DNA of 42,195 nucleotides from a virus: positions 1 through 42,195 of IMG/VR virus record IMGVR_UViG_3300021371_000037, one strand, 5' to 3'. How positions within the stretch are numbered: the stretch's first letter is position 1; each line of letters begins with the position of its first letter. The notes below the pieces were generated by a model, which was not told the DNA's origin, did not search any database, and worked only from the letters and a program-made list of their open reading frames with translations. Both the position numbers and the translations under genes were made by a program. Of this stretch, positions 929-27,351 are shown piece after piece.

Positions 929-1177
929 ATGAATCCATACAAAAATAAAGGTAATATAAGAACGTTTTCGAAAGATGTAAATAAACTAGAACTAGTTTGG
1001 CATCAAGACGCTGAAGATAGAGATATCGAAGTATTAGAAGGTAAGGGATGGGAATTACAAATGGATAATGAATTGCCCTTTGAATTAGTAAAGGGAGATC
1101 GTATATTTATAACAGAAGGTAGAATACACCGAATATTAAAAGGTACAACCGATTTAAAAATTAGAATAAATGAATAA
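929..1177 (+). CDS. Small cupin-like conserved phage protein
   Basis: This is an 82-residue protein starting one base after the upstream stop. The ELVWHQDAEDRDIEVLEGKG stretch, followed by LPFELVKGDRIFI and IHRILKGTTDL, looks like the short beta-strand and turn pattern of a small cupin fold. Similar small proteins occur in marine T4-like phages next to structural genes. Two histidines (in VWH and IHR) could bind metal, but a complete cupin metal site cannot be shown. Its last eight bases overlap the start of the next gene, which suggests translational coupling. The enzymatic role is unknown. Confidence 0.55.
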   Translation: MNPYKNKGNIRTFSKDVNKLELVWHQDAEDRDIEVLEGKGWELQMDNELPFELVKGDRIFITEGRIHRILKGTTDLKIRINE

Positions 1178-1490
1178 CTTTGATTTAAAAAAATATTTAG
1201 CTGAAGGAAGGCTATTTAAAGAAGGAATTGACCCAAATTCCGAAATTGCTGATTATGTAGAAGCAATGTTTAATGACTCTGTAGTAGAAAAAGAAGGATT
1301 TCAATCTGATATTTGGACAAAAGCAGAATATGCTGCTACTTCAAGAGGTGAAGGATCTGTATTTATGGATTTAGCTAAACATTTAAATTCAGTAGGTGGT
1401 AAAGATGTACTAGAAGGCAACCCAGACATTCATTTAGAATTATTATCTAATGGTGATATTAAATGGAGTGCTGATGTAACATTTGATTAA
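1170..1490 (+). CDS. Short protein with capsid-targeting-like N-terminal leader (copy 1)
   Basis: This is a 106-residue acidic protein. Its first 16 residues, NNFDLKKYLAEGRLFKE after Met, are almost identical to those of the next gene, while the rest is unrelated. The LAE/G step fits the T4 prohead protease (gp21) cleavage rule, (L/I)-x-E. The leader resembles the capsid-targeting sequence of T4 internal head proteins, recalled as beginning with a MKTYQEFIAEA-type peptide. It may therefore be an internal protein packed in the prohead and trimmed after Glu. The start overlaps the previous gene by eight bases. The remaining sequence has no family I recognise. Confidence 0.6.
   Translation: MNNFDLKKYLAEGRLFKEGIDPNSEIADYVEAMFNDSVVEKEGFQSDIWTKAEYAATSRGEGSVFMDLAKHLNSVGGKDVLEGNPDIHLELLSNGDIKWSADVTFD
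1174..1207 (+). repeat. 34-bp direct repeat coding the shared leader, copy 1
   Basis: These 34 bases are identical to 1507-1540. They encode the FDLKKYLAEG leader of the first short protein. Confidence 0.9.
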
Positions 1491-1502
1491 AAATTAAAAT
1501 AA

Positions 1503-1811
1503 ATGGATAACTTTGATTTAAAAAAATATTTAGCTGAAGGTCGTTTATTAAAAGAAGACGTTGAAAAAATAAGCAACGAAGAATTTACTATCGTTTATGA
1601 TGCTGACGATATGACAGATTATAAAGTATATAATAGATTACTTTCAGATAAAGAAGCAGATGCAGCAGAAGAAGATTTTAAAGTCCTAGATGATGAAATA
1701 GAAACATTTGTTTTAGATTCTGAAACACCAGCTAGCGAAATTTTAGATTATGCTTCTTCACAAGAAGAATTAGAAGATTACGGTTTAAGTAAATATTGGA
1801 AATTTAAATAA
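1503..1811 (+). CDS. Short protein with capsid-targeting-like N-terminal leader (copy 2)
   Basis: This is a 102-residue, strongly acidic protein. Its leader, DNFDLKKYLAEGRLLKE, matches the previous gene, and the DNA coding for the leader is a perfect 34-base direct repeat (1174-1207 and 1507-1540). After the leader the two proteins diverge completely. The body (EEFTIVYDADDMTDYKVYNR...) looks like a small alpha/beta domain of unknown function. A modular tag on unrelated short proteins fits capsid-packaged internal proteins. Its stop is followed immediately by the cysteine-rich micro-ORF. Confidence 0.6.
   Translation: MDNFDLKKYLAEGRLLKEDVEKISNEEFTIVYDADDMTDYKVYNRLLSDKEADAAEEDFKVLDDEIETFVLDSETPASEILDYASSQEELEDYGLSKYWKFK
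1507..1540 (+). repeat. 34-bp direct repeat coding the shared leader, copy 2
   Basis: This is the second perfect copy of the repeat at 1174-1207, in the same position and frame within the next gene. Confidence 0.9.
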
Positions 1812-1943: not shown

Positions 1944-1970
1944 TGTGGCCTCCGTTTGGAGGCCACATTT
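1944..1970 (+). terminator. Hairpin terminator after the leader and micro-ORF genes
   Basis: TGTGGCCTCC (1944-1953) pairs perfectly with GGAGGCCACA (1958-1967) around a GTTT loop. It is the most GC-rich spot in the neighbourhood and is followed by a weak T tract. The loop also carries the TTTG of the following promoter, so the two elements overlap. Confidence 0.6.
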
Positions 1971-2009: not shown

Positions 2010-3299
2010 ATGAGTAAAAACATAGTAATGATTGGAGCAGGTGTAGCAAATGTAAATGCTGCTACTAAGCTAGTTGATAATGGATTTAAAGGTAAAATCA
2101 CTATTATTGATATGGGTAAAGACCCATATTTAAGACCATATGAAGAGGTAATGACAGGTTTCCTAGGAGCAGGAGGTTGGTCTGATGGTAAATTAACTTA
2201 CCACACTTCAATTGGAGGGCAATTATCTAAATATTGTGGTGAAGAAAAAGCGATGGAATTATTTGATCAGGTGATAGATAATTTTAAACGTTTCCACCCT
2301 AAACCAGAGGAAGTACAATGTTCAAATCCAGTAGCAGAACCAGAATTTATTAAACCATATTTTGGATTAAGATTATTTCCAGTATGGCACGTTGGTACAG
2401 ATTATTTACATGAAATAGGTAAAAATTGGTATGATTTCTTAGTTGATGGTGGTGTTGAATTTATTTGGGAAACTAAAGTAACAGATATCGATTTTGAAGA
2501 TCAAATTGTATCTATAGGAGCAGTAGATGAAATGAAATATGATGAACTTATATTTGGTGTAGGTAAATCAGGTATTGACTTTGGTAAGGTATTAGCTGAA
2601 AAATATGATTTACCAACTGAACCTAAACCAGTACAAATAGGTGTTAGATTTGAAGCACCACAAAAACACTTCCAAAAATTAATTGATGTAAGCTATGATT
2701 TCAAATTGTATCGTAAATTCAAAGACAAAGGAGTATCATTACGTTCATTCTGTACAAACAACAACGCAGCTTATGTTGCCGTTGAGGAAACGTATGGAGA
2801 TCATTCGTACAATGGACACGCTAAAAAAGATGAAGCATTCCGAAATGACATGACCAATTTTGGTATTCTAATGGAAGTTCAAGGTATTGATAAACCATTT
2901 GATTGGTCTAGAGATGTAGTTAAAAAATTACAGATAGATGGTACAGGATTATATTATAGTCCAAGTAGAAAACCATCAACAACATCTGAAGGTATAAATG
3001 TATCAGCTATCCAAGTAGATACATTACATAAAATATCAAAAGCAATGCAACCCTACTTTATGTATGTGTATGATTTTATTGAAGACATGAAAAAAGTTTT
3101 CCCAACACTTAAAGATGATTGGGGTATTTATGTACCTGAAGTAAAATATCTATCACCTGAGCCACTTGTCGATTATACCAATTTAGCACTCACTAAGTAT
3201 CCTAACGTACACTTCGTAGGAGATGCTTTATCAGCTAGAGGTATAACGGTAAGTGGTGCACAAGGGACATATGTTGCTGAATCACTTTTGGAGAATTAA
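2010..3299 (+). CDS. FAD-dependent oxidoreductase (COG2509-like)
   Basis: This is a 429-residue flavoprotein. It begins with a dinucleotide-binding beta-alpha-beta motif, IVMIGAGVANVNAATKL (GxGxxN, residues 8-13). It ends with a second FAD-contacting motif, VHFVGDALSARGITVSGAQG. The general pattern matches uncharacterised FAD/NAD-utilising dehydrogenases. The reaction and substrate cannot be read from sequence. There is no signal peptide, so it is cytoplasmic. It sits between a terminator and two other non-structural genes, with its own promoter, so it is an auxiliary metabolic gene rather than a virion gene. It is full length, with no frameshift. Confidence 0.8.
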   Translation: MSKNIVMIGAGVANVNAATKLVDNGFKGKITIIDMGKDPYLRPYEEVMTGFLGAGGWSDGKLTYHTSIGGQLSKYCGEEKAMELFDQVIDNFKRFHPKPEEVQCSNPVAEPEFIKPYFGLRLFPVWHVGTDYLHEIGKNWYDFLVDGGVEFIWETKVTDIDFEDQIVSIGAVDEMKYDELIFGVGKSGIDFGKVLAEKYDLPTEPKPVQIGVRFEAPQKHFQKLIDVSYDFKLYRKFKDKGVSLRSFCTNNNAAYVAVEETYGDHSYNGHAKKDEAFRNDMTNFGILMEVQGIDKPFDWSRDVVKKLQIDGTGLYYSPSRKPSTTSEGINVSAIQVDTLHKISKAMQPYFMYVYDFIEDMKKVFPTLKDDWGIYVPEVKYLSPEPLVDYTNLALTKYPNVHFVGDALSARGITVSGAQGTYVAESLLEN

Positions 3300-3316
3300 A
3301 ATAAGTTTCGTATATT
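3287..3316 (+). promoter_or_regulatory. Bacteroidota-type promoter for the 3334 gene
   Basis: TTTG (3287-3290), a 20-base spacer and TATATT (3311-3316) start inside the end of the FAD gene. The -10 region TAAGTTTCGTATATT is identical to that at 1970-1984. The following ATG is at 3334. Confidence 0.55.
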
Positions 3317-4160: not shown

Positions 4161-4718
4161 ATGAAAAAATCTGAATTAAAAAATTATATCAGAGAAAATA
4201 TCATCTCTACATTATCTGAAGATACTGATGCAGAAATTGAAAAAACTAAAGAATTAACTGCTGCTATTAAAGATTTAGAAGTAGCTAAAAAAGAAGCAGG
4301 CATTGAAGAAGATGCTACCCCAAAAGGTGAAGACTTCTTTTATGATTATTTAGATATTGGTATGTCTTATTTAGAAGGATTTGGTAAAAAACATTCTTTA
4401 GATGATAACCAGTTAGAAAAATTAGGTAAAAAAATAGTAGATCAATTATATAAAGGTGATGTTGGTAAGGCATATGATGCCATTGTTAAAAGAGGTTCGA
4501 TGAAAGAAAATGAAGATAAAGAACCATCTAAAGCAGATCTTAAAAAAACCAAAGGTTTAGCTAAAGCAAAAGAAGAATTAGCTTTATTAACTCGTGAAAT
4601 GAAATCATTAGCTAAAAAATATTCTAAAGCTGAAGGTGAAGAAAAAGAAAAACTAGTAGCTGATCTTAAGAAAAAAACAAAACTTAAAAAAGAATTAGAA
4701 AAGATTTTAGATAAATAA
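4161..4718 (+). CDS. Coiled-coil protein, possible internal head protein
   Basis: This is a 185-residue, Lys/Glu-rich, mostly helical protein. It opens with KKSELKNYIRENIISTLSED, an amphipathic N-terminus similar to leaders common on phage structural proteins, and LSE/D would fit a prohead-protease site. The last ~60 residues (KADLKKTKGLAKAKEELALL...KELEKILDK) form a strong coiled coil. The middle contains a short folded part (GEDFFYDYLDIGMSYLEGFGKK). It has its own late promoter, so it is expressed with virion genes. No family is recognised. Confidence 0.5.
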   Translation: MKKSELKNYIRENIISTLSEDTDAEIEKTKELTAAIKDLEVAKKEAGIEEDATPKGEDFFYDYLDIGMSYLEGFGKKHSLDDNQLEKLGKKIVDQLYKGDVGKAYDAIVKRGSMKENEDKEPSKADLKKTKGLAKAKEELALLTREMKSLAKKYSKAEGEEKEKLVADLKKKTKLKKELEKILDK

Positions 4719-6991: not shown

Positions 6992-8914
6992 ATGGCTGAT
7001 AAAAGCGTATTTTCAAGATTAAAAAGACTATTTTCAACTGATGTAGTTATCAGAAACGTTGGGGGTAATCAAATAAAAGTAATAGATAGTGCTAAAATTC
7101 AATCAACTGGTGAATTAGAAACTAATTCATTAATGGATAGATATAATAGAGTATTTTCTACAAGTCCTTCTTCTTTATATGGGGCTCAATTTAATATTAA
7201 TTATCAATACCTTAGACCTCAGTTATATTCAGAATATGATTTAATGGATAATGATGCAATTATTGCATCTGCTCTAGATGTATTAGCTGATGAATCAACT
7301 TTAAAAAATGATATGGGTGAAGTACTTCAAATTAGAAGTGCTAATGAAGATATACAAAAAATATTATATAATCTATTTTATGATGTATTAAATGTAGAAT
7401 TTAATCTTTGGATGTGGGTTAGACAAATGTGTAAATATGGTGATTTTTTCTTAAAATTAGAAATTGCTGAGAAATATGGTGTTTATAATGTAATACCTTA
7501 CACAGCTTATCACATCGAAAGACAAGAAGGATATGACCCAGATAACCCAGCAGCTGTAAGATATAGATATGCACCTGATGGTATGGATAATTTAAGTTCA
7601 GGTATGTACCCCGTTCCTGGAGCTTCTGCTGGTAATTTAATGAATGAGCAAGGTATTTTCTTTGATAATTATGAAATGGCTCACTTTAGACTTCTTTCAG
7701 ATGTTAATTATTTACCTTATGGTAGAGCATATATTGAACCAGCTCGTAAATTATATAAACAATATGTTTTAATGGAAGATGCAATGTTAATCCATAGAAT
7801 TGCTCGCGCCCCAGAAAAACGTATTTTTTACATGAATGTTGGATCTATTCCCCCAAATGAAATAGATGCATTTATGCAAAAAACAATTGGTAATCTAAAA
7901 CGTACTCCATTCCAAGATAATAAAACAGGAGAATATAATCTAAAGTATAACATGCAAAATATGTTAGAAGACTTTTATATTCCTGTTCGTGGTAATGATC
8001 AAACTACAAAAATAGATACTACCCCAGGACTACAATATGATGGTATTCAAGATGTAGAATATTTAAGAGGTAAATTATTTGCTGCACTTAAAATTCCTAA
8101 AGCATTTTTAGGATATGAAGAAGGAGTAGAAGGTAAAGCTACATTAGCTCAACAAGATATTAGATTTGCTCGTACAATTGAAAGAATCCAAAGAATATTA
8201 TTATCTGAATTAAATAAAATTGCTTTAGTACATTTATATACTCAAGGTTATACAGATGAAACATTAACTAATTTTACATTAGATATGGCTAGCCCATCTA
8301 TAGTATTAGAACAAGAAAAAATTGAATTACTTAAATCTAAAACAGAATTAGCACAATCAATGCTAGAACAAAAGTTAGTTCCATCTGATTGGATTTATGA
8401 TAATGTATATCAATTTAGTGAAGATCAATATGATGAGTATAGAGAATTAACTAGAGAAGATGCTAAACGACAATTTAGATTAGCGCAAATTGAAGCTGAA
8501 GGAAATGACCCAGTTGAAACAGGTAAATCTTATGGTACACCTCATGATTTAGCATCATTATATGGTAAAGGTAGAATGTACTCAGACCCAGGTGGAGTTC
8601 CAGATCCTGAAAAATATGCAGCAGATGATCCTAAATTAGGTAGACCAAAAGATACTAATGTAAAACGTAATACACAAGGAGATAATTTTGGAAAAGATCG
8701 TTTAGGAGTTAAACGTATGAAAGATACAGATAAAAATGATTCTAATAGTATTAAAAATAAGTTTAAAGGAGGTAGCCCTTTAGCACTTGAAAGTGCCAAA
8801 TCTACTTATATGAAAAACTTAGATATGTTTAAACAAATGAATAAAAAACAATTAATATTTGAAGAAGATATAGATACATCTTCACTATTAGATGAAAACC
8901 AATTAAAGAAGTAA
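6992..8914 (+). CDS. Portal vertex protein (gp20-like)
   Basis: This 640-residue protein forms the dodecameric ring through which DNA enters the head. The hallmark of T4-type portals is clear at about residues 365-405: ALKIPKAFLGYEEGVEGKAT followed by QQDIRFARTIERIQRILL. The N-terminal part contains DNDAIIASALDVLADE and an aromatic-rich WMWVRQMCKYGDFFLK core. The C-terminal ~120 residues are charged and low in hydrophobics. The gene lies directly after terL and has its own late promoter. Length is somewhat above the ~524 residues of T4 gp20, mainly in the C-terminal tail. Confidence 0.95.
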   Translation: MADKSVFSRLKRLFSTDVVIRNVGGNQIKVIDSAKIQSTGELETNSLMDRYNRVFSTSPSSLYGAQFNINYQYLRPQLYSEYDLMDNDAIIASALDVLADESTLKNDMGEVLQIRSANEDIQKILYNLFYDVLNVEFNLWMWVRQMCKYGDFFLKLEIAEKYGVYNVIPYTAYHIERQEGYDPDNPAAVRYRYAPDGMDNLSSGMYPVPGASAGNLMNEQGIFFDNYEMAHFRLLSDVNYLPYGRAYIEPARKLYKQYVLMEDAMLIHRIARAPEKRIFYMNVGSIPPNEIDAFMQKTIGNLKRTPFQDNKTGEYNLKYNMQNMLEDFYIPVRGNDQTTKIDTTPGLQYDGIQDVEYLRGKLFAALKIPKAFLGYEEGVEGKATLAQQDIRFARTIERIQRILLSELNKIALVHLYTQGYTDETLTNFTLDMASPSIVLEQEKIELLKSKTELAQSMLEQKLVPSDWIYDNVYQFSEDQYDEYRELTREDAKRQFRLAQIEAEGNDPVETGKSYGTPHDLASLYGKGRMYSDPGGVPDPEKYAADDPKLGRPKDTNVKRNTQGDNFGKDRLGVKRMKDTDKNDSNSIKNKFKGGSPLALESAKSTYMKNLDMFKQMNKKQLIFEEDIDTSSLLDENQLKK

Positions 8915-10702: not shown

Positions 10703-12355
10703 ATGAAACAAACACCAAATCAATTATTCGAACAACTTTCTAAAGAATTTGCTCCAAAAAAAGATAAGGAGCTAATTAATGAAGAATTAGGTCAAGTAGT
10801 AACATTAAAACCTATTAATACTATTGAGGCAAGTAATAAAGACCCATTTTGGACTAAATTTGAAAACTTTTTAGCTGAAGGTGGTACATTAGAACCTCTT
10901 GTTAATAATGAGGATAAAGTTAAATATAACTCTAAAGAACAAGACGAAAAAATAAAAGCAGATCCTAAATTAAAGTTCGAAATGGACAATAAGTTAGGTG
11001 GTTCTTATAAAGTATCGGATGCTGTTGAAAATATAGATTCTCATAATTATGATTATGATCCTAAAGTAGAGAATATTAATAATGTTAATGCTCAAGAAGT
11101 ATTAAGTGGTGTTCAATTAGAAATTAACTATAATAAAGAATTATCTTTAGATGAAGCAATGGAATTAGCTGTTAAAAACTTAGCTAAAGACCCATTACAT
11201 TATGTAAAAGAAGGACAATTTGGAGTTCAAGGTCTAGGATATAAAGAAGCTAAACAACAACAAAGCGATGGTGAAAGTTATGGTGGTAGTGGATTTAGTA
11301 CTAAATTAAAAGATGGGGGTGATTCTATGGAATTGGTAAAAGAATCTAAAGAATTAGTTTTAGAGGCATTTGGTCAAGTAGTAACCTCAGGAAACCCAAA
11401 TTCATTAGCAGCTCAATCAGGAAATATTATTCGTCAGATGATGGCTGAAAAAGAAGAAGAGAAAAAGTTACCTATGGATGAAATGGAAGATGAAGGTACA
11501 GCAGTATCCTATTCTGATACTACTATGGAAGCTAAAGGTAAAGATCATGATGGTGATGGCGATATAGATTCAGATGATTATATGGCAGCTAAAGATAAAG
11601 CTATTAAATCTGCTAAAGCTAAAAAACCTAAAAAAGAATCAATCGATTCTAAATTAGCTGAAATTGGTAAAGCAGGTGATATTACTAAAATGGAAGCTCA
11701 ATTAGAATTTTTATCTAATCATATTGATGAAAAAATTCAAAGAGTAAGTTCAATTAATGAAGATGATAATCTTAAAGAATTAATTGATAAAAAGAAAATG
11801 AAAGACATGCAAAAAGAAATTAAGCTTTTAGAAAAAAGAAAAGCTGGGATGGAAAAAATGTATGAAAAAATGTGTGGTAAAAAATACCAAAAAGCTGAAA
11901 TGGTAGACGAAATGGATGAAGTAAGTTGGAATGAAAAAAATAACCCAACTCGAGGAGCTACCAAACGGGAATTAGATCCTAAAAAAGTAGGACAATCAAC
12001 ATCTGCTTATGCTATCAATGAAGGACTTGATGGTAGCGTTTATGAAATCCCAAAAGATGTATCTGATGAGGCTTTAAAACCATATATAGGTAAATTTTTA
12101 AAACCAACCGATGCTAAAAATGATATGGTAAGTAATGCTACTGAATATGATAAAGAAGGAGGTTTCTTTAAAGTAGGTCAAAAAATTGAACTTAAACCAG
12201 CAGTATCTTTAAGTTCTTTTGGTAAATCATTAGGAAAACCTGAAAAAGCAAAAGATGATAATGAAAAACCTGCTGAATACAGAGATGAAAGTGGTAAAAG
12301 GGTAAAAAACCCAGATTTTAATATTAAAAAAGTTTCTTATAAACTAGTTAAATAA
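10703..12355 (+). CDS. Large acidic head-module protein with EF-hand-like loop
   Basis: The 550-residue, Lys/Glu/Asp-rich protein is probably an internal or core head protein. Around residue 57 it has FLAEGG, matching the (L/I)-x-E prohead protease cleavage rule and the leaders at 1170 and 1503. Residues 281-292 (DHDGDGDIDSDD) form a canonical EF-hand calcium loop with acidic residues at positions 1, 3, 5, 9 and 12. Lys-rich repeats such as KSAKAKKPKKES follow. GQVVT occurs twice (about residues 30 and 224), hinting at an internal duplication. It ends one base before the protease start. The function is inferred from context. Confidence 0.55.
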   Translation: MKQTPNQLFEQLSKEFAPKKDKELINEELGQVVTLKPINTIEASNKDPFWTKFENFLAEGGTLEPLVNNEDKVKYNSKEQDEKIKADPKLKFEMDNKLGGSYKVSDAVENIDSHNYDYDPKVENINNVNAQEVLSGVQLEINYNKELSLDEAMELAVKNLAKDPLHYVKEGQFGVQGLGYKEAKQQQSDGESYGGSGFSTKLKDGGDSMELVKESKELVLEAFGQVVTSGNPNSLAAQSGNIIRQMMAEKEEEKKLPMDEMEDEGTAVSYSDTTMEAKGKDHDGDGDIDSDDYMAAKDKAIKSAKAKKPKKESIDSKLAEIGKAGDITKMEAQLEFLSNHIDEKIQRVSSINEDDNLKELIDKKKMKDMQKEIKLLEKRKAGMEKMYEKMCGKKYQKAEMVDEMDEVSWNEKNNPTRGATKRELDPKKVGQSTSAYAINEGLDGSVYEIPKDVSDEALKPYIGKFLKPTDAKNDMVSNATEYDKEGGFFKVGQKIELKPAVSLSSFGKSLGKPEKAKDDNEKPAEYRDESGKRVKNPDFNIKKVSYKLVK

Positions 12356-12356
12356 T

Positions 12357-12962
12357 ATGAGTAAATCACTCTTAATAGAAACAAATACCTTTAAAATTAA
12401 CCCTCTCCAGTTAACAGAAAATGTTAACAAGGAGACGGGTAATTTAATGGTTGAGGGAATTTTAGCTACTGCTGAAGTTAAAAACGGAAATGGTAGATAC
12501 TATTCAAAAGATCTATGGAATAGAGAAATGGATAAATATAATGAACTTATTGAACAAAGACGTTCAATGGGAGAATTAGATCATCCTGAATCAACTGTTA
12601 TAAATTTAAAAAATGTATCACATCTAATATCAGATTATTGGTGGGATGGTGATAATGTAATGGGTAAAATAGAAATTTTACCTACTCCCTCAGGTCAAAT
12701 ACTTAAAGAATTAATTAAAGCAGGTGTAACAGTAGGTGTTTCATCTCGTGGTATGGGATCATTAGAACAAAATGGTGGTGTAATGGAAGTACAAGATGAC
12801 TTTGAATTATTATGTTGGGATTTTGTTTCAACACCTTCTAATCCTGGTTCTTATATGCATACTTTAAATGAAGGAAAACAAGTTATTACTTATGATTATA
12901 CAAATGTTAATAAAGTAGTACATGAAATCCTTTGTTCTAAAGGCTCTTGTCCTATTTTTTAA
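12357..12962 (+). CDS. Prohead core protease (gp21-like)
   Basis: This 201-residue serine protease of the T4 gp21 / herpes assemblin-like clan matures the prohead by cleaving scaffold and capsid proteins after Glu. The catalytic His lies in MGELDHPEST (His76) and the catalytic Ser in GVTVGVSSRGMGS (Ser129 or Ser130). The ...NGNGRYYSKDLW and FELLCWDFVSTPSNPGS segments are family signatures. It is located directly upstream of scaffold and capsid genes as in T4. It follows the previous gene by one base. Confidence 0.92.
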   Translation: MSKSLLIETNTFKINPLQLTENVNKETGNLMVEGILATAEVKNGNGRYYSKDLWNREMDKYNELIEQRRSMGELDHPESTVINLKNVSHLISDYWWDGDNVMGKIEILPTPSGQILKELIKAGVTVGVSSRGMGSLEQNGGVMEVQDDFELLCWDFVSTPSNPGSYMHTLNEGKQVITYDYTNVNKVVHEILCSKGSCPIF

Positions 12963-13087: not shown

Positions 13088-14230
13088 ATGGCAAACAATG
13101 ATTTGTTAAAAGAAGCAATCGCTGATGCTAAAGCTGTTAAAGAAACTGCTATTGCAAACGCAAAACTTGCTCTTGAAGAAGCATTTACACCACATCTAAA
13201 ATCTATGCTTTCAGCAAAATTAGAAGAAATGGACAAAGAAGACGTTGACGAAGGATACGGTAAGTATGAAGAAGACGACGTTAAAGCAGAAATGGAATCT
13301 AAGGATGAAATGAAAGAAGAGAAAGAAGATATGGATGAAGCTAAAGAAGAGCTTGACGAGATTAACCTTGACGAATTACTTGCTGAACTTGAATTGGATG
13401 AAGACAAACGTACAGATGCTGAACAAGAAGGCTATAAGGACGGATTCGAAGACGCTAAAGACGACATCGAAAAAGAACTTAAATCTATGAAAGTATCAGA
13501 AGAAGTATCCGAAGAAATTACTGAAGATGCTAGAACTGATGCTGAAGAAGAAGGCTACCTTGATGGTATGAAAGACGAAAAAGAAGACGAAGAAGACAAA
13601 ATCGACGATGAAGAAATTGATCTAGAAGATATGTCAGAAGACGACTTAAAAGGATTCATTGAGGATGTTATTAAAGATTTAGTAGCAGACGGAACAATTG
13701 AAGCTGGTGAGGATTTTGAAGAGGAAGATGTTGAAGACGTTGTAGACGTAGAAGATGTTGAAGATGTAGATGTTGATGTAGAAATCGACGAAGCAAAAGA
13801 CATGGATAAAGGTGAAAAAGGTGTCGGAAACGAGGATGGAGACAAAGATGACTCTAAAATCGAAAAAGAAACTGAAAAAATGAGATTTAAAGAAGCATTA
13901 GATGAAATCGAAGCTCTTAAAGTTGAATTGCAAGAAGTTAACCTTTTAAATGCTAAACTACTTTACACAAACAAAGTATTCAAATCTAAAAACTTAACTG
14001 AAGACAAAAAAGTTAGAGTGCTTAAAGCATTTGACAAAGCGTCAACAGTAAAAGAAGCTAAAGTTATTTTTGAAACATTAAACGAAGGTTTAGTATCAAA
14101 AACAGAATCTAAAGCAAGACCACAAGGTAGTGCTTCTAAGGCAACTGGAACAATAACTGAAGCTAAAAAACCAATTATTGAAAGCAATGATGTATATAAC
14201 CGTATGCGTAAACTTGCTGGATTAATTTAA
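13088..14230 (+). CDS. Prohead scaffold core protein (gp22-like)
   Basis: The 380-residue, extremely Asp/Glu-rich protein is the internal scaffold around which the capsid assembles before the protease degrades it. Two imperfect repeats begin with RTDAEQEGYKDGFEDAKDD and RTDAEEEGYLDGMKDEKED (around residues 113 and 149). The C-terminal third, with helices EIEALKVELQEVNLLNAKLL and VLKAFDKASTVKEAKVIFETL and the ending SNDVYNRMRKLAGLI, is typical of gp22. It lies between the protease and capsid genes as in T4. Codons ending in C (GAC, AAC) are more frequent than in neighbours, as in the capsid gene, which suggests high expression. Confidence 0.88.
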   Translation: MANNDLLKEAIADAKAVKETAIANAKLALEEAFTPHLKSMLSAKLEEMDKEDVDEGYGKYEEDDVKAEMESKDEMKEEKEDMDEAKEELDEINLDELLAELELDEDKRTDAEQEGYKDGFEDAKDDIEKELKSMKVSEEVSEEITEDARTDAEEEGYLDGMKDEKEDEEDKIDDEEIDLEDMSEDDLKGFIEDVIKDLVADGTIEAGEDFEEEDVEDVVDVEDVEDVDVDVEIDEAKDMDKGEKGVGNEDGDKDDSKIEKETEKMRFKEALDEIEALKVELQEVNLLNAKLLYTNKVFKSKNLTEDKKVRVLKAFDKASTVKEAKVIFETLNEGLVSKTESKARPQGSASKATGTITEAKKPIIESNDVYNRMRKLAGLI

Positions 14231-14262: not shown

Positions 14263-15954
14263 ATGAGCTTAAATACTCTTTTAGAAAGCGCGAACCCATA
14301 CCAGTCTTTACAGTCTGACGCGGCTAGATTAGCTAGCAAATGGGAAAAGACAGGTTTATTAGAAGGTTTAGATGGTGCCCACAAAAATAATATGGGTATG
14401 ATCCTTGAAAACCAAGCTAAACAACTTGTTGTTGAATCATCACAAACTAGTGGTGGTGTAGGAAATGGTGGTACATTTCAGTCACAAACTGGCGTAAACG
14501 TTGGTGGACAGTGGGCTGGTGTAGCTTTACCATTAGTACGTAAGGTATTTGGTCAAATTGCTGCACAGGAATTTGTATCAGTACAACCAATGAATTTACC
14601 TTCTGGTCTTGTATTTTTCCTAGATTTCCAATATGGATCTAGCAAATCTCCATTTACAGCTGGTAATTCATTATACGGAGATAAGACATCTGCTGAAAAC
14701 CCATTCGGTAATACAAACACAGGTGGATTATATGGATCTGGTCGTTTTGGATATTCTATTCAAAATACTGAATCAAAAGTAACATCTGCAAGAACAAATG
14801 CTACTTGGGATCAATTTAACTTTAACAGTACTTACTCAGCCTCTGTTGCTGCTGGTGATTACCAAAGAGTACAAATTGATGCTGCTGACTTAGGTTTTGC
14901 AGATTTTGAAGCTGTAAAAGCATTCCAATTATTTACTGGATCTTTAACTAGTGTTGTACCAACAGGTTCAGATGGTACTGTACCAGGTGTACAAGTGTCT
15001 GAATTTACAGAATACGATGCAGTGAATGGTAAGATTAATTTCTATGCTTTAGATACTGCTATTACAACTAACGATGTATGGGTAAATTACCAACTTCAAC
15101 CAACTGATAATAACAGAGGTGATTTTGAAGCAGGTAACCCTCATCCAAACTCTTACAACGATGAGTCAGGTGCTAACTGTTGTCCAGACCAAGTTATTCC
15201 AGAAATCAACATCCAGATGCAATCATCTGCAATTGTTGCTAAAACTAGAAAACTTAAAGCTGTATGGACTCCAGAATTTGCACAGGATTTAAATGCATAC
15301 CATGCATTAGATGCTGAAGCTGAATTAACTTCAATCTTAAGTGAGTACATTTCATTAGAAATTGACTTAGAAATCTTAAGTATGTTAATTGAATCAGCTG
15401 CTGCAGGAACTGAAACTTGGTCAGTTAAAAATAACGCCCAATTAACAGGTGCAGGTGCTACAATTGCAGAAACTGATTTAGGATTCTACAATTCTCAAGG
15501 ACAGTGGTTCCAAACTTTAGGAACTAAAATCCAAAAATTGAGCAACATCATTCACCAGAAAACTCTTCGTGGTGGTGCTAACTTTATGGTTGTTTCTCCA
15601 GCTATCGCTACTATCCTAGAATCTATTCCAGGATTTGCTGCTGATACAGATGGTGATGCTGCTAAAATGAACTATGCATTTGGTGTACAAAAAGTTGGTG
15701 CTTTAAATACTCGCCAAAAAGTATACAAAAACCCTTACATGACTGCTAACACAATCCTATTAGGATACCGTGGTACTCAGTTCTTAGAAAGTGGTGCTGT
15801 ATTTGCTCCTTACATTCCGTTAATCATGACTCCACTTGTATACGATCCAGATACGTTCGTACCAAGAAAAGGTCTATTAACTAGATATGCTAAGAAAATG
15901 GTTCGTCCAGAATTCTATGGAAAAATCAATGTATCAAATTTAGATCTTTTATAA
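14263..15954 (+). CDS. Major capsid protein (gp23-like)
   Basis: The 563-residue T4-type capsid protein has the HK97 fold. Recognisable stretches are VRKVFGQIAAQEFVSVQPMNLP, the KTRKLKAVWTPEFAQDLNAY and DAEAELTSILSEYISLEIDLEIL pair that parallels T4 gp23, and the C-terminal LTRYAKKMVRPEFYGKI. The N-terminal ~58 residues are probably removed by the prohead protease, with LVVE/SSQTSG (after Glu58) the best candidate site. The start follows an A-rich stretch with no Shine-Dalgarno. A strong terminator follows. C-ending codons are frequent, as expected for the most abundant virion protein. Confidence 0.95.
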   Translation: MSLNTLLESANPYQSLQSDAARLASKWEKTGLLEGLDGAHKNNMGMILENQAKQLVVESSQTSGGVGNGGTFQSQTGVNVGGQWAGVALPLVRKVFGQIAAQEFVSVQPMNLPSGLVFFLDFQYGSSKSPFTAGNSLYGDKTSAENPFGNTNTGGLYGSGRFGYSIQNTESKVTSARTNATWDQFNFNSTYSASVAAGDYQRVQIDAADLGFADFEAVKAFQLFTGSLTSVVPTGSDGTVPGVQVSEFTEYDAVNGKINFYALDTAITTNDVWVNYQLQPTDNNRGDFEAGNPHPNSYNDESGANCCPDQVIPEINIQMQSSAIVAKTRKLKAVWTPEFAQDLNAYHALDAEAELTSILSEYISLEIDLEILSMLIESAAAGTETWSVKNNAQLTGAGATIAETDLGFYNSQGQWFQTLGTKIQKLSNIIHQKTLRGGANFMVVSPAIATILESIPGFAADTDGDAAKMNYAFGVQKVGALNTRQKVYKNPYMTANTILLGYRGTQFLESGAVFAPYIPLIMTPLVYDPDTFVPRKGLLTRYAKKMVRPEFYGKINVSNLDLL

Positions 15955-21333: not shown

Positions 21334-22542
21334 ATGGCAAATTGGAAAAAGGTAGTAGTTAGTGGATCTAATGCAGAATTAGCAGAATTAACTTTATCAA
21401 ACTTATCACAACAGGCAACTGAAAACACTGTATTAACTATTAATACTGCTGGAGTAGTTGGAACAAGAGAAAATGCTGCAAGTTCTGGTACTTCAGGTAC
21501 TAGTGGATCAGATGGTTCATCCGGTTCTTCAGGAACAAGTGGTGTAGATGGTAACCCAGGTTCAAGTGGTTCTTCAGGAACAAGTGGAACTAGTGGATCA
21601 GATGGTTCAAGCGGTTCTTCAGGTACAAGTGGAGACTCTGGTTCAAGTGGTTCTAGTGGTACATCAGGAACTAGCGGTGATGATGGTGCTCCAGGTTCAA
21701 GTGGTTCTTCAGGAACAAGTGGAACTAGTGGATCAGATGGTTCAAGTGGTTCTTCAGGAACAAGTGGTGTAGATGGTGATGCTGGTTCAAGTGGTTCATC
21801 AGGAACTTCTGGTACAAGTGGTGCTGACGGTGACGCTGGTTCTTCAGGTTCTAGTGGTACATCAGGCTCAAGTGGTTCAGATGGTTCTTCAGGATCAAGT
21901 GGTACAAGTGGTTCTTCTGGTTCTTCAGGTACTTCAGGTACTAGTGGATCAGATGGTTCATCAGGTTCTAGTGGAACAAGTGGTTCTTCTGGATCAAGTG
22001 GAACATCAGGCTCATCAGGTTCTAGTGGAACAAGTGGTGTAATCAATGTTACTAATTCTGGTAATAACAGAGTATTAACAGATATTGATGGTGATAGTGC
22101 CAATGCTGAACAAAATATGACTTTTGTAAGTGATGGTGGTTCTACAGTAGGTGGTTTATTAACAGTAACCGGTGATGTAGTAATTAGTCATGATTTAACA
22201 GTACAAGGTACAGCATCTTTCCAAAATTCAGAAAATTTATTAGTAGCTGATAGATTTATCTTAATGGCTTCTGGTTCTACTTCTGTAGGAGATGGTGGTA
22301 TTGTAGTACAACAAGATACTCAAGATTATGGTGATGCTTTTGCATTTGATGGTTTATCAACTGAAAGATGGGGTGTAACAAGTTCTTTCCATGCTAGTGG
22401 ATCAGGATTTACACCAGATGCTTTCATGGCAACAGTAGTAGTAGGTTCAGGTGGAGCATTACCTTCTTCTGCCCCTACTAGATACCAAGCTGAAGGTAAT
22501 ATTTTTACATCAGCTTCAGGTGATATTTATATTTACTCTTAA
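21334..22542 (+). CDS. Collagen-like Gly-Ser/Thr-rich tail fibre protein (short paralogue)
   Basis: This is a 402-residue fibre protein. Residues 1-48 form an anchor domain (ANWKKVVVSGSNAELAELTL ... VGTRENAASSG) shared with the gene at 23083. Residues ~50-235 are an uninterrupted Gly-x-y tract built from GSSGTSG, GTSGSDG and GSSGSSG units with some GVDGNPG. The C-terminal ~165 residues are beta-rich (VINVTNSGNNRVL..., LTVTGDVVISHDLTVQGTASF) and may form the receptor-binding tip. The tract has almost no proline, so it is collagen-like in periodicity only. Its Ser/Thr density makes it a candidate glycosylation substrate. Confidence 0.8.
   Translation: MANWKKVVVSGSNAELAELTLSNLSQQATENTVLTINTAGVVGTRENAASSGTSGTSGSDGSSGSSGTSGVDGNPGSSGSSGTSGTSGSDGSSGSSGTSGDSGSSGSSGTSGTSGDDGAPGSSGSSGTSGTSGSDGSSGSSGTSGVDGDAGSSGSSGTSGTSGADGDAGSSGSSGTSGSSGSDGSSGSSGTSGSSGSSGTSGTSGSDGSSGSSGTSGSSGSSGTSGSSGSSGTSGVINVTNSGNNRVLTDIDGDSANAEQNMTFVSDGGSTVGGLLTVTGDVVISHDLTVQGTASFQNSENLLVADRFILMASGSTSVGDGGIVVQQDTQDYGDAFAFDGLSTERWGVTSSFHASGSGFTPDAFMATVVVGSGGALPSSAPTRYQAEGNIFTSASGDIYIYS
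21481..22035 (+). repeat. Gly-Ser-Ser/Thr coding repeat tract
   Basis: The nine-base periodic DNA coding for (G-S/T-S)n produces long spurious ORFs in other frames and on the opposite strand. Serine codons alternate between TCA/TCT and AGT, so the repeat is degenerate at DNA level. Confidence 0.9.
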
Positions 22543-23082: not shown

Positions 23083-26000
23083 ATGCCAAATTGGAAAAAA
23101 GTAATACTTAGTGGTAGTAATGCTGAGTTAAATGAACTTAAATTAACAGGTCTTTCAACCCAAGGATCTGAGAATACAACCCTTGTAATAAATAGTAGTG
23201 GTCAAGTAGGAACAAGAGAAAATGCTGCTTCCAGTGGTACTTCAGGTTCTTCAGGAAGTTCAGGTTCATCAGGTACATCAGGATCAAGTGGAAGTAGTGG
23301 TTCATCAGGTTCATCAGGTTCAAGTGGTACTTCTGGTTCATCAGGTTCAAGTGGCACTTCAGGTTCAAGTGGTTCAAATGGTAGTTCAGGGTCTTCAGGC
23401 TCATCTGGTTCTTCAGGAACAAGTGGTGTAGATGGTAACCCAGGCTCTAGTGGGTCTTCAGGTACATCGGGTTCATCAGGTTCATCAGGAAGTTCAGGTT
23501 CATCAGGTACATCAGGATCAAGTGGTTCAAGTGGTACTTCAGGTTCTAGTGGTAGTTCAGGTTCAAGTGGTTCATCTGGAACTTCGGGAGCAGCTACTAT
23601 TAATAATAATGTTGATACTTATTTATTAACAGCAACCGGAACTTCAGGTTTAATTGAAGGTGAAGCTAATTTAACATTTTCAGGATCAACTTTATTAACT
23701 GTATCAGGATCAGGTAGTACAATTTTAGATGTACAAGGATCCCAAGGTCAATTATTTTCAGTAACTGATGATTTAACTGGGATAGTATTTGCAGCATCAG
23801 ATATATCGGGTGTTCCTATTTTATCCGTAAGTGGTTCAGGTTTAACAATGATTGATGGGACTTTACAAATTCCAAATTTACCTAATATAACAACTAGTAA
23901 TGATGTATTAGTAATAGATTCAAATGGTAATATAGGATATGAAGCAAATGCTGCTTCTAGTGGTACTTCTGGTTCAAGTGGTTCATCAGGAAGTTCAGGT
24001 ACATCGGGTTCATCAGGAAGTTCAGGCTCATCCGGCTCTTCAGGTACATCAGGCTCATCCGGCTCTTCGGGTACATCAGGTTCATCTGGTTCTAATGGTT
24101 CAAGTGGCTCATCAGGTACTTCAGGAAATTCAGGTTCAAGTGGTTCTTCAGGTACAAGTGGTTCTTCAGGTTCAGATGGAACATCTGGTTCAAGTGGCTC
24201 ATCAGGTACTTCAGGTAATTCAGGCTCAAGTGGTTCAAGTGGTACTTCAGGTAATTCTGGTTCAAGTGGCTCTAGTGGCTCTTCAGGTTCATCAGGTACT
24301 TCAGGAAATTCAGGTTCAAGCGGTTCATCTGGAACTTCCGGTTCATCAGGTTCATCAGGTTCAAGTGGAAGTAGTGGCTCATCGGGTTCAAGTGGCTCAT
24401 CAGGTACTTCAGGACAAGATGGTAACTTTGGTGGTGCTACATTTGACTATACTTTTAGTACTTCTACTACAATTGCAAATCCAGGAGGAGGAAATATAAG
24501 ATTAAATAATTCAACCCAAACATCTGCAACAGTAGCTGCAATTAGTGAAACTGATGATGATGGAAATTCTGTTCAATCATTTTTTGAAACTATAGATTCA
24601 TCAACTTCAGCTGTAAAAGGTCATATGAGATTATCAGATAAAGATGATCCTTCAGATTTTATACTATTTGCCCTTGATGAATTGGTTGACCAAGGGGATT
24701 GGTGGCAATTTACAATAATATTTGAATCCCAAGGGGGTAATGCTTTAACAAACGGTGAAGATATTATAGCATCCTTTGTAACAACAGGTGATAGAGGAGA
24801 TGATGGTACATCAGGTTCATCTGGTAGTTCAGGTTCATCTGGTAGTTCAGGTTCATCTGGTAGCTCAGGCTCATCAGGTTCATCAGGTACATCAGGTAAC
24901 TCAGGCTCATCAGGTTCATCAGGTACATCAGGTAACTCAGGCTCATCTGGTTCTTCTGGAACAAGTGGTACCTCAGGTTCATCTGGTTCTTCAGGAACTT
25001 CAGGAACTTCAGGTAATTCTGGTTCAAGTGGCTCCAGTGGTTCATCAGGTTCTTCAGGTACATCAGGTTCATCAGGTTCATCAGGAACTTCGGGTAATTC
25101 TGGTTCTAGTGGTTCATCTGGTTCTAGTGGTTCATCTGGTACTAGTGGCTCTAGTGGCTCTAGTGGTACTTCAGGTCAAGATGGAGGTACAATAGCAAGA
25201 TTTAATGGATATGATAATGGTACTTTAAACACTACTAATTTTTCAACTAATGGGACAACAGCATTTTTAAAAGTTGATACTACACAATATGGTTTAGACC
25301 CATCAATTAATACAAACTATTATACATTTACTAATCAATCAGATACTATTACTATTGATAATGATGGTTATTATATAATTAATGCTAATATTGTATTTTT
25401 AGTATCAACTAGAAGCACATTAAGATCAATGATGGCAGCTTCTGTTTATATTAATGGTGTTAAACAAGAAGACACTTATGCTGATTCATACTCAAGGGGA
25501 TCTAGTTATAACGAGGATATAAACGTATCTGTTAAAGCTTATTATTTCTTATCAGCTAATGATACTATTAAAATAGAGCTTGAAACAGCTCATATGGATA
25601 CTAGTGGTAATGGTACTGTTGCAGTACAAGATGCTGTTTGGAATGTAGCATTTATAACTGGAACAGCAGCTGCAGCTGGTAATGATGGTTCATCAGGAAC
25701 AAGTGGTACATCAGGTTCATCAGGTTCATCAGGAACTTCGGGTAATTCTGGTTCTAGTGGTTCATCTGGTACTAGTGGCTCTAGTGGCTCTAGTGGTACT
25801 TCAGGTGGAACAGGCTCACCTGGTACTTCAGGAACTTCAGGCTCTTCAGGTTCATCAGGATCATCAGGTACTAGTGGTTCAAGTGGTTCTAGTGGTACAA
25901 GTGGCGGTACTGGTTCTCCAGGTACTTCAGGTACTTCAGGCTCTTCAGGCTCTTCAGGTTCATCAGGAACATCAGGCTCCTCAGGATCTTCAGGTACAAG

Positions 26001-27351
26001 TGGTGGTACCGGTTCCCCAGGTACTTCAGGTTCATCAGGTTCATCAGGTTCATCAGGTACTAGTGGTAATAGTGGTTCTTCAGGTTCTAGTGGTACTTCA
26101 GGTAACTCCGGTTCTTCAGGTTCATCAGGAACATCAGGTGGACAAGGTGACCCAGGTTCCCCAGGTACTTCAGGTTCATCCGGTTCAAGTGGTTCATCAG
26201 GTACATCAGGTTCATCAGGTTCATCAGGTACATCAGGTTCATCAGGTTCATCAGGTACTACTACTATTACAAATAATTCAAATAATAGAGTATTAACCGC
26301 TACTGGTACTTCAACAATTAATGGTGAATCTAATTTAACTTTTGATGGTACTTGTCTTGCAGGACCAATTTTACAATTTGGTTTTTGTCATACAATAGGA
26401 TCAGGATTTAGTTACCCTTCCGTTACAGGTGGAAGCCAAAATACATCATCAGCATCTTGTTCTACTATAGGTGGTGGATGTAGAAATTTTATTTGTGATA
26501 CTGGTGGTTCTTTTATAGGAGCGGGTGATAGAAATTGTATTTCTGGGTCAGGATGTTTTAATATAATTGGAGCTGGTCAAGTTAATAAAATTTGTGCACT
26601 TGGTAGTTGTACTGCTCAAGTAACAATGGCTGGAATTTTTGCTGGTGCGAATAATACAATAACTGGTGTAACAGGTGGTTGTGTGCATATTGGTTCTGGT
26701 TATTCAAACCTAATTTGTGGTAACTCTGCGTATTCAAGTATAGTTGGAGGATGGGACAATACTATTTGTTCTTCTCAAAAAGCCTCAATAGTAGCAGGAT
26801 GTAATAACTGTATTTGCAATAGTGCTAATGATAGTGTTATTTTAGGAGGGTATTCAAATTATATAAATGGTCAAACTTGTACTTTTGTTGCGGGTAATAA
26901 TATTAGTACTACAACTTCCAATTCTTTATATATGAATAATGGAATTGTTACTCAACACTTGCAAGTAGGAGGAACATCTCCTTGTAATACAACTACAGGT
27001 AGAATTGATGCAACAAATGATGTTGTAGCATATGCAACCTCAGATAGAAGATTAAAAGAAAATATTAAGCCTATTGATAGTGCTTTATGTAAAGTAATCG
27101 GAGTATCAGGTAATACATTTGATTGGAAAGAGTTAACTAAAGAAGAAAAACTAGTTATACATGGTAATGAAGGACCGGATGTTGGTGTAATTGCCCAAGA
27201 AATAGAAGAAGTATTACCTGAAGCAGTTACTACAAGAGAAAGTGGTTATAAAGCTGTTAATTATGAAAAAATTGTACCTTTATTAATTGAAGCAATTAAA
27301 GACTTAACAAATAAAGTAGAAAAATTAGAAACAAAAATAAATAAAAAATAA
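23083..27351 (+). CDS. Giant collagen-like tail fibre with C1q-like domain and S74 self-cleaving chaperone
   Basis: This is a 1422-residue fibre protein. Domains in order are: anchor 1-48 (shared with 21334); Gly-Ser-Ser/Thr tracts ~50-169, 290-445, 575-697 and 869-1057; beta spacers ~170-288, 446-573 (a sandwich-like unit, DYTFSTSTTIANPGGG... to FVTTGDRGDDG) and ~703-862. The last spacer looks like a C1q/TNF jelly roll (DTITIDNDGYYIINANIVF, SVYINGVKQ, SANDTIKIELE). Residues ~1060-1310 are a Cys-rich beta region with IGGG/IGAG-type turns. Residues ~1318-1422 are a peptidase S74 intramolecular chaperone, with predicted self-cleavage before Ser1320 in TSDRRLKENIKP. The C-terminus ends in a coiled coil that would trimerise the fibre. 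Confidence 0.9.
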   Translation: MPNWKKVILSGSNAELNELKLTGLSTQGSENTTLVINSSGQVGTRENAASSGTSGSSGSSGSSGTSGSSGSSGSSGSSGSSGTSGSSGSSGTSGSSGSNGSSGSSGSSGSSGTSGVDGNPGSSGSSGTSGSSGSSGSSGSSGTSGSSGSSGTSGSSGSSGSSGSSGTSGAATINNNVDTYLLTATGTSGLIEGEANLTFSGSTLLTVSGSGSTILDVQGSQGQLFSVTDDLTGIVFAASDISGVPILSVSGSGLTMIDGTLQIPNLPNITTSNDVLVIDSNGNIGYEANAASSGTSGSSGSSGSSGTSGSSGSSGSSGSSGTSGSSGSSGTSGSSGSNGSSGSSGTSGNSGSSGSSGTSGSSGSDGTSGSSGSSGTSGNSGSSGSSGTSGNSGSSGSSGSSGSSGTSGNSGSSGSSGTSGSSGSSGSSGSSGSSGSSGSSGTSGQDGNFGGATFDYTFSTSTTIANPGGGNIRLNNSTQTSATVAAISETDDDGNSVQSFFETIDSSTSAVKGHMRLSDKDDPSDFILFALDELVDQGDWWQFTIIFESQGGNALTNGEDIIASFVTTGDRGDDGTSGSSGSSGSSGSSGSSGSSGSSGSSGTSGNSGSSGSSGTSGNSGSSGSSGTSGTSGSSGSSGTSGTSGNSGSSGSSGSSGSSGTSGSSGSSGTSGNSGSSGSSGSSGSSGTSGSSGSSGTSGQDGGTIARFNGYDNGTLNTTNFSTNGTTAFLKVDTTQYGLDPSINTNYYTFTNQSDTITIDNDGYYIINANIVFLVSTRSTLRSMMAASVYINGVKQEDTYADSYSRGSSYNEDINVSVKAYYFLSANDTIKIELETAHMDTSGNGTVAVQDAVWNVAFITGTAAAAGNDGSSGTSGTSGSSGSSGTSGNSGSSGSSGTSGSSGSSGTSGGTGSPGTSGTSGSSGSSGSSGTSGSSGSSGTSGGTGSPGTSGTSGSSGSSGSSGTSGSSGSSGTSGGTGSPGTSGSSGSSGSSGTSGNSGSSGSSGTSGNSGSSGSSGTSGGQGDPGSPGTSGSSGSSGSSGTSGSSGSSGTSGSSGSSGTTTITNNSNNRVLTATGTSTINGESNLTFDGTCLAGPILQFGFCHTIGSGFSYPSVTGGSQNTSSASCSTIGGGCRNFICDTGGSFIGAGDRNCISGSGCFNIIGAGQVNKICALGSCTAQVTMAGIFAGANNTITGVTGGCVHIGSGYSNLICGNSAYSSIVGGWDNTICSSQKASIVAGCNNCICNSANDSVILGGYSNYINGQTCTFVAGNNISTTTSNSLYMNNGIVTQHLQVGGTSPCNTTTGRIDATNDVVAYATSDRRLKENIKPIDSALCKVIGVSGNTFDWKELTKEEKLVIHGNEGPDVGVIAQEIEEVLPEAVTTRESGYKAVNYEKIVPLLIEAIKDLTNKVEKLETKINKK
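23230..23589 (+). repeat. Gly-Ser-Ser/Thr tract 1 of the giant fibre
   Basis: It encodes about 120 residues of (G-S-S)/(G-T-S) units with single GSNG and GVDGNPG interruptions. Confidence 0.9.
23950..24420 (+). repeat. Gly-Ser-Ser/Thr tract 2 of the giant fibre
   Basis: It encodes about 155 residues, with recurrent GNSGSSGSSGTS units and one GSDGTSG. Confidence 0.9.
24806..25176 (+). repeat. Gly-Ser-Ser/Thr tract 3 of the giant fibre
   Basis: It encodes about 123 residues and shares long DNA-level identity with the start of tract 4 (GNSGSSGSS...GTSGSSG), consistent with duplication or recombination. Confidence 0.9.
25687..26255 (+). repeat. Gly-Ser-Ser/Thr tract 4 of the giant fibre
   Basis: It encodes about 189 residues. 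Three repeated GGTGSPGTSG units and one GGQGDPGSPGTSG are the only places with proline, giving short genuinely collagen-like patches. Confidence 0.9.

Follow-up and report, generated by a model that had tools for sequence, protein, structure and literature searches.

The window, by which we mean the whole 42,195-nucleotide stretch of DNA analysed here, is part of a contig from a T4-like phage and has a GC content of 31%. The nearest named relatives of its major capsid protein are those of Flavobacterium phage vB_FspM_immuto_2-6A (hereafter immuto; 55% identity), Microcystis phage Mel-JY01 (46%) and Rhodothermus phage RM378 (35%). These identities suggest membership of Far-T4, a group with proposed hosts among marine Bacteroidota (PMC7198788). 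Two long proteins encoded at 21334-22542 and 23083-27351 consist mostly of SGSSGTSG-type repeats, and the end of the second resembles a tail-fibre chaperone domain. The features needed for the argument are as follows.

929-1177, plus strand: upstream gene (82 aa), whose 3' end shares 8 nt with the start of cargo gene 1
1170-1490, plus strand: putative cargo gene 1 (106 aa; translation, family alignment and AlphaFold2)
1174-1207, plus strand: first copy of a 34-bp repeat (sequence identity)
1503-1811, plus strand: putative cargo gene 2 (102 aa; translation and orthologs)
1507-1540, plus strand: second copy of the 34-bp repeat (sequence identity)
1944-1967, plus strand: perfect 10-bp hairpin 3' of the cargo genes (fold z-score -6.1)
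2010-3299, plus strand: conserved FAD oxidoreductase gene, the anchor of a variable cargo island (PF07992)
6992-8914, plus strand: gp20-like portal gene (beside the terminase; the immuto gene in the same place is annotated gp20)
10703-12355, plus strand: candidate prohead core protein gene with FLAE59↓GG (directly upstream of the protease gene; ↓ marks a putative cut)
12357-12962, plus strand: gp21-like S77 prohead protease gene, encoding the putative processing enzyme (PF03420, 1.5e-29)
13088-14230, plus strand: gp22-like prohead scaffold gene (position and composition)
14263-15954, plus strand: gp23 major capsid protein gene (PF07068, 1.5e-74)

As the initial annotation had observed, the two copies of the repeat (ATAACTTTGATTTAAAAAAATATTTAGCTGAAGG) are identical over 34 bp, and a chance origin for such a match in 42 kb is negligible. 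The repeat encodes NFDLKKYLAEG in both open reading frames (ORFs; MNNFDLKKYLAEGRLFKEG... and MDNFDLKKYLAEGRLLKED...), and the identity ends within the leader. The bodies of the two proteins, likewise described at the outset as unrelated, were assigned to separate families, and neither protein had a match in Pfam or PHROGs. In cargo gene 1 the leader comprises residues 1 to 12 (1170-1205), with the first LxE↓G after E12 and a second site, FKE, after E18 (1221-1223); in cargo gene 2 it also comprises residues 1 to 12 (1503-1538), with the second site, LKE, after E18 (1554-1556). Both bodies are acidic. AlphaFold2 modelled the 1170 protein with a pLDDT of about 49 in the leader and 80-92 in the body, as would befit a flexible leader on a folded body; Foldseek returned no significant match for this model and the best VIA Z was 5.3, so that no convincing structural relative emerged. 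For the family of the 1503 protein, which has four leader-bearing orthologs (L014, L099, L126 and L137), AlphaFold2 gave no usable model (pLDDT 39.5). The gene at 929-1177 is likely to share an operon with cargo gene 1, and the hairpin at 1944-1967 is probably the operon's end. Immediately 3' of cargo gene 2 and 5' of this hairpin, a 21-residue ORF (1813-1878; MKCNCKICNCGTSCDCTCCGC) encodes a Cys-rich, metallothionein-like peptide. The exact 12-mer GTTTCGTATATT occurs at 1973-1984 and 3305-3316, just 5' of genes 2010 and 3334, and is perhaps a phage promoter element.

Related genomes, which the initial annotation had proposed to search for further carriers of the leader, contain them in number. 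With the 1170 protein as the query, some loci aligned over the first 15-26 residues only, these being other proteins that share that start. A degenerate DNA pattern scanned against IMG/VR matched at least 120 stretches; several leader residues were fixed by the pattern itself, and these were excluded from the evidence for conservation, only free leader positions being counted. At least 205 non-redundant IMG/VR proteins start with the leader, and their unrelated bodies form at least 101 clusters, 69 of them singletons; the pair in the window represents a minor part of an extensive system. Two dialects recur, MxNFDLKKYLAEGKLLKE and MxNFDLKKFLVENKLTTNSKMLNE (LAEGKLLKE as against LVENKLTTNSKMLNE). 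At positions left free by the search pattern, among the leaders listed, 203 of 205 have G, N or S at P1', 191 have K or R at P2' and 189 have L, V or I at P3'. A second LxE follows the first at +3 to +13 in 94% of leaders (weighted by body cluster) compared with 20% in a control window farther on, and lies mostly at +5 or +6 in the LAEGKLLKE dialect and at +12 in the other. Conservation past the first LxE (GKLLKE) requires either a second site or a broader recognition motif as its explanation, and the mature N-terminus may follow E18 instead of E12. A search for a conserved DNA element 5' of the leader genes gave nothing beyond an A-rich stretch ahead of the start. In a set of 50,697 phage records the leader was found in immuto genomes only and was absent from the other isolated phages, while in 257 Gb of prokaryote (bacterial and archaeal) contigs the pattern occurred at nine places, all on MAG contigs.

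A second leader type, MKELxxFRQ(F/Y)L(T/A)EG, was found on 43 ORFs, many of whose bodies are homologous to bodies under the first type. The same cargo stands behind different leaders in L107_607 and L137_2767 (87%), in L274_7850 and L023_608 (86%) and in L264_12411 and L066_359 (80%); unrelated phages encode homologs of a Cys-rich cargo, elsewhere annotated HiPIP, that lack this leader. Since one cargo can occur on two leaders and the Cys-rich cargo on none, the leader behaves as movable, in agreement with the initial reading and with its presence on at least 101 unrelated bodies. Adjacent leader genes are separated by a median intergenic gap of 12 nt, and one contig (L263) carries six second-type leader genes consecutively. 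In an actinobacterial phage (L252:259-993, OQ999401), a leaderless homolog of the Cys-rich cargo adjoins a gene annotated as a capsid maturation protease. At the start of the proteins encoded at 4161-4718 of the window, L058:6544-7530 and L041:5404-5781 stands a different motif that looks repeated (MKKSELKNYIRENI, MDKLKLRYLIREAI and MKLLELRQLIQEEL), possibly another leader type.

Leader genes often terminate 120-280 bp upstream of the FAD gene. A leader gene lies within 3 kb of the FAD gene in 58 of 67 FAD loci, a fraction that is biased, since the loci had mostly been retrieved on account of their leaders. FAD proteins 97-98% identical to that of the window were found in four contigs, three of which have wholly different cargo in the slot: L005 holds the 1170 family alone, L269 one unrelated protein, L022 three and L284 four. 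The cargo swapping suspected from the window alone is thus visible in slots whose contents differ next to nearly invariant neighbours. No leader was found within 10 kb of the capsid gene in 80 loci (0/80) because the island lies farther off (12.5 kb in the window); when 31 of those capsid contigs were scanned entire, two contained the leader.

Cargo bodies also occur as modules of longer chains. The entire 1170 cargo body (94% identical) is found in L006_998 downstream of another module, behind LYE↓GKLLKEG; L024_1609 has about five modules, and L128_339, L010_10339, L043 and L014_1116 have two or three. A systematic search yielded 39 module junctions in 33 proteins, some of these junctions being based on partial alignments. 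LxE is present at 30 of the 39 (40% expected) and missing from nine. Thirteen junctions have the strict core LxE(G/N/S)(K/R/N/Q)(L/I/V) (5.8% expected, P=1.5e-7), and only two have the FDLKKY/FRQ half. With LxE kept and FDLKKY/FRQ dropped, what would be the cutting half of the leader is therefore retained without the targeting half, the pattern to be expected if LxE were a protease signal and FDLKKY/FRQ were needed once per chain. Separately, the long leader proteins at L111:746-2422, L063:1394-2545 and L064:1813-3405 (MADNFNLRSFLTENKLTKNAQLLKE) carry another complete leader within the chain, which gives them the appearance of a fusion between two leader genes.

The window encodes an enzyme that could act at such sites. 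The 12357-12962 protein is placed in peptidase S77 by its profile match and by the His- and Ser-containing motifs LDHPE and SSRG, which are invariant in all 66 aligned S77 proteases and which we take to hold the catalytic residues. Its own sites, LTE21↓N and LNE172↓GK, are kept in 95% and 97% of orthologs, in the forms LTE↓(N/S) near the N-terminus and L(N/K)E↓GK near the C-terminus. The first 58 residues of gp23 contain four LxE↓(S/G/N) motifs (E8, E34, E49 and E58; kept in 86-100% of orthologs), the gp22-like protein has conserved LxE motifs close to both ends (E9, E31, E333 and E365), and LLDE↓(S/N)QLK is found at the extreme C-terminus of the portal-like protein (E635; kept in 78%). Sequence comparison matches the LxE↓(G/N/S) of the leader with the conserved motifs in the protease termini and the gp23 propeptide. 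The proposal that LAE/G fits a T4-type prohead protease gains from both the S77 gene and the conservation of LxE↓(G/N/S) in the phage's own head proteins; the FLAEGG noted in the 10703 protein is present (residues 56-61, E59 the putative P1), but it is patchily conserved (31/62) and gives one candidate core site only. A plain count of LxE sites in head versus non-head genes gave no significant difference, and the argument therefore rests on where the sites lie.

In two genomes (L237 and L238) a leader gene lies immediately 3' of the protease gene, and the immuto gene in this position has a diverged leader (MENNFDIHKWQAKFLKE↓S) and a body that by eye resembles the cargo L050_890. Directly upstream of the immuto protease gene, gp071 (L150:18579-19661) contains, close to its N-terminus, the sequence KEHFIAEARMQ, which strongly resembles QEFIAEARVG from the start of a T4 internal protein. 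When 31 leader records, many of them fragments, were searched whole, S77 was found in 16 and gp23 in 15, including seven of the eight records of more than 100 kb from the first pattern scan. S77 and gp23 were absent from several leader records of 98-110 kb; G034 and G062, long leader records of this kind, contain T4-type baseplate wedge genes and are therefore probably fragments.

Sequence alone shows that the tag is shared, that cargo is swapped, that polyproteins have such junctions, that head proteins carry matching motifs and that the protease is present; on each point accessible to sequence analysis the initial reading is supported. From this we infer that the cargo docks and enters the capsid, is cut free and ejected, and acts in takeover or counter-defence, the ejection and anti-defence role being drawn by analogy with T4 IPI. 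We consider it quite probable that the leader is a capsid-targeting sequence (CTS) analogous to that of the T4 internal proteins, cut by the S77 protease, and that the cargo is ejected with the DNA. In the proposed mechanism, F-D/N-L-K/R-K-Y/F (ELxxFRQF in the second type) would dock the cargo onto the prohead core, F4 and Y9 standing for the aromatic targeting residues of the T4 CTS and L10-A11-E12 for the cut. After prohead assembly, the S77 protease would cut LxE↓(G/N/S)(K/R)L...LxE↓ at the first LxE, the second or both, leaving the cargo free in the head and ready to enter a Bacteroidota host together with the DNA. Polyproteins would combine one targeting half with several cutting halves. 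A tag that works on any body would account for the fast turnover of cargo genes beside the FAD gene.

The function of the cargo is mostly unassigned, and Pfam and PADLOC gave mostly weak matches for 101 representatives; a P-loop kinase/zeta-toxin-like domain (PF06414, 1.4e-16), a DUF5872 domain and the Cys-rich family stand apart. Assignments to Tad5, HamA and ZorE were rejected as weak matches (E 0.001-0.01). The cargo is acidic, with a median pI of 4.65 compared with 5.71 for small immuto proteins (P=1e-8). Acidity is frequent among scaffolds, two close LxE sites would suit the removal of a small peptide, and leader genes are found next to gp21, all of which would be in keeping with prohead core or scaffold helpers that, like T4 gp67 and gp68, are degraded and lost during maturation without being delivered. 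We nevertheless regard this as unlikely: the great diversity and fast turnover of the bodies, their enzyme-like members such as the P-loop kinase/zeta-toxin-like domain and the few strong internal LxE sites of single-module bodies better fit a delivered payload.

At leader positions with the same residue, codon identity is 0.745 within a locus and 0.671 between loci, 0.597 being expected from codon usage, so that the leader is conserved mainly as a peptide, with some recent copying or conversion inside a genome. The slightly higher identity within loci, together with the perfect 34-base match in the window and the rapid turnover of cargo, would also suit a recombination handle, in which short homologous DNA at gene starts shuffles cargo genes and the peptide itself does nothing in the head. 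This strikes us as very unlikely, since the peptide is kept while its codons vary, the same cargo stands under two different leader peptides, and the junctions retain the LxE part and not the adjoining part of the leader; shuffling may be a by-product of a shared leader rather than its purpose. That both halves of the leader occur together in nearly all N-terminal copies might, finally, reflect a signal that sends proteins to another destination during infection (membrane, host complex or replication site) or sets their stability, with LxE inside a binding helix, a notion rendered highly improbable by the match to the head protease's own conserved sites, by leader genes that adjoin the protease gene and by junctions that have LxE without the first half.

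Under the capsid-targeting reading, T4-like phages of aquatic Bacteroidota most likely tag about a hundred unrelated small proteins for head loading and delivery with the DNA, and the tag is probably cut off from the cargo. A bolder version, whose chances we would call even, is that of a programmable payload in T4-like Bacteroidota phages: mini-effectors strung together (at most about five modules per polyprotein and six genes per array) that carry interchangeable targeting tags, are released by the prohead protease and are drawn from a dedicated fast-turnover island tracking host defences. If the reading is true, the leader identifies, from genome sequence alone, which proteins an abundant group of aquatic phages injects, such proteins being otherwise hard to find outside model phages, and it offers a natural tag for loading foreign proteins into the heads of Bacteroidota phages. 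A polyprotein would likewise load several effectors via one targeting signal, an arrangement of which we found no description in the open-access literature. Because the cargo turns over beside an anchor gene that hardly differs, a role in an arms race can be tested directly.

The principle is already known from T4. For the two-site leader, the interchangeable tags, the cargo island and the polyproteins, as for any movable leader or cargo polyprotein in such phages, no description was found in the open-access literature. Immuto has the leader on gp003, gp076, gp077 and gp092; in its record the leader proteins are annotated as hypothetical, gp077 as an adenosyltransferase, and the leader is unmentioned. 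The head and ejection propeptides of the giant phage SPN3US and of phiKZ are similar in that a prohead protease cuts after x-x-E, at several sites per propeptide, and a targeting role has been proposed (PMC5694885, PMC10052503), but they are mostly longer than 100 residues, use an A-x-E motif and share no movable tag.

The CTS of T4 IPI, IPII and IPIII is, like the leader, a short N-terminal peptide on otherwise unrelated small proteins, in which (L/I)-A-E and a small residue come after aromatic residues, in a phage with an S77 protease. IPII and IPIII start with MKTYQEFIAE↓A; a likeness to the leader of T4 internal proteins had been pointed out at the outset. In IPIII, targeting depends on residues 4 and 7 and cutting on residues 8 and 10, and a role for the CTS in packaging diverse proteins has been proposed (PMC9026906); gp21 of T4 is believed to cleave itself close to its ends, and several cuts are made in the T4 gp23 propeptide (PMC9026906, PMC5694885). 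Two marks of a T4-type system are present here, namely a short N-terminal propeptide common to unrelated proteins (at least 205, in at least 101 body clusters) and, in the window, an S77 prohead protease (PF03420, 1.5e-29). The two cargo proteins of the window belong to no Pfam or PHROGs family that would relate their mature bodies to IPI, IPII or IPIII, a relation that is not required for a CTS-like mode of working. The systems differ in that the window leader has 12 residues before its first site and T4 has 10, and in that the leader has a second LxE and comes in at least two interchangeable types. Its cargo comprises about 100 unrelated bodies, occurs also as polyproteins and is acidic, whereas T4 IPII and IPIII are basic.
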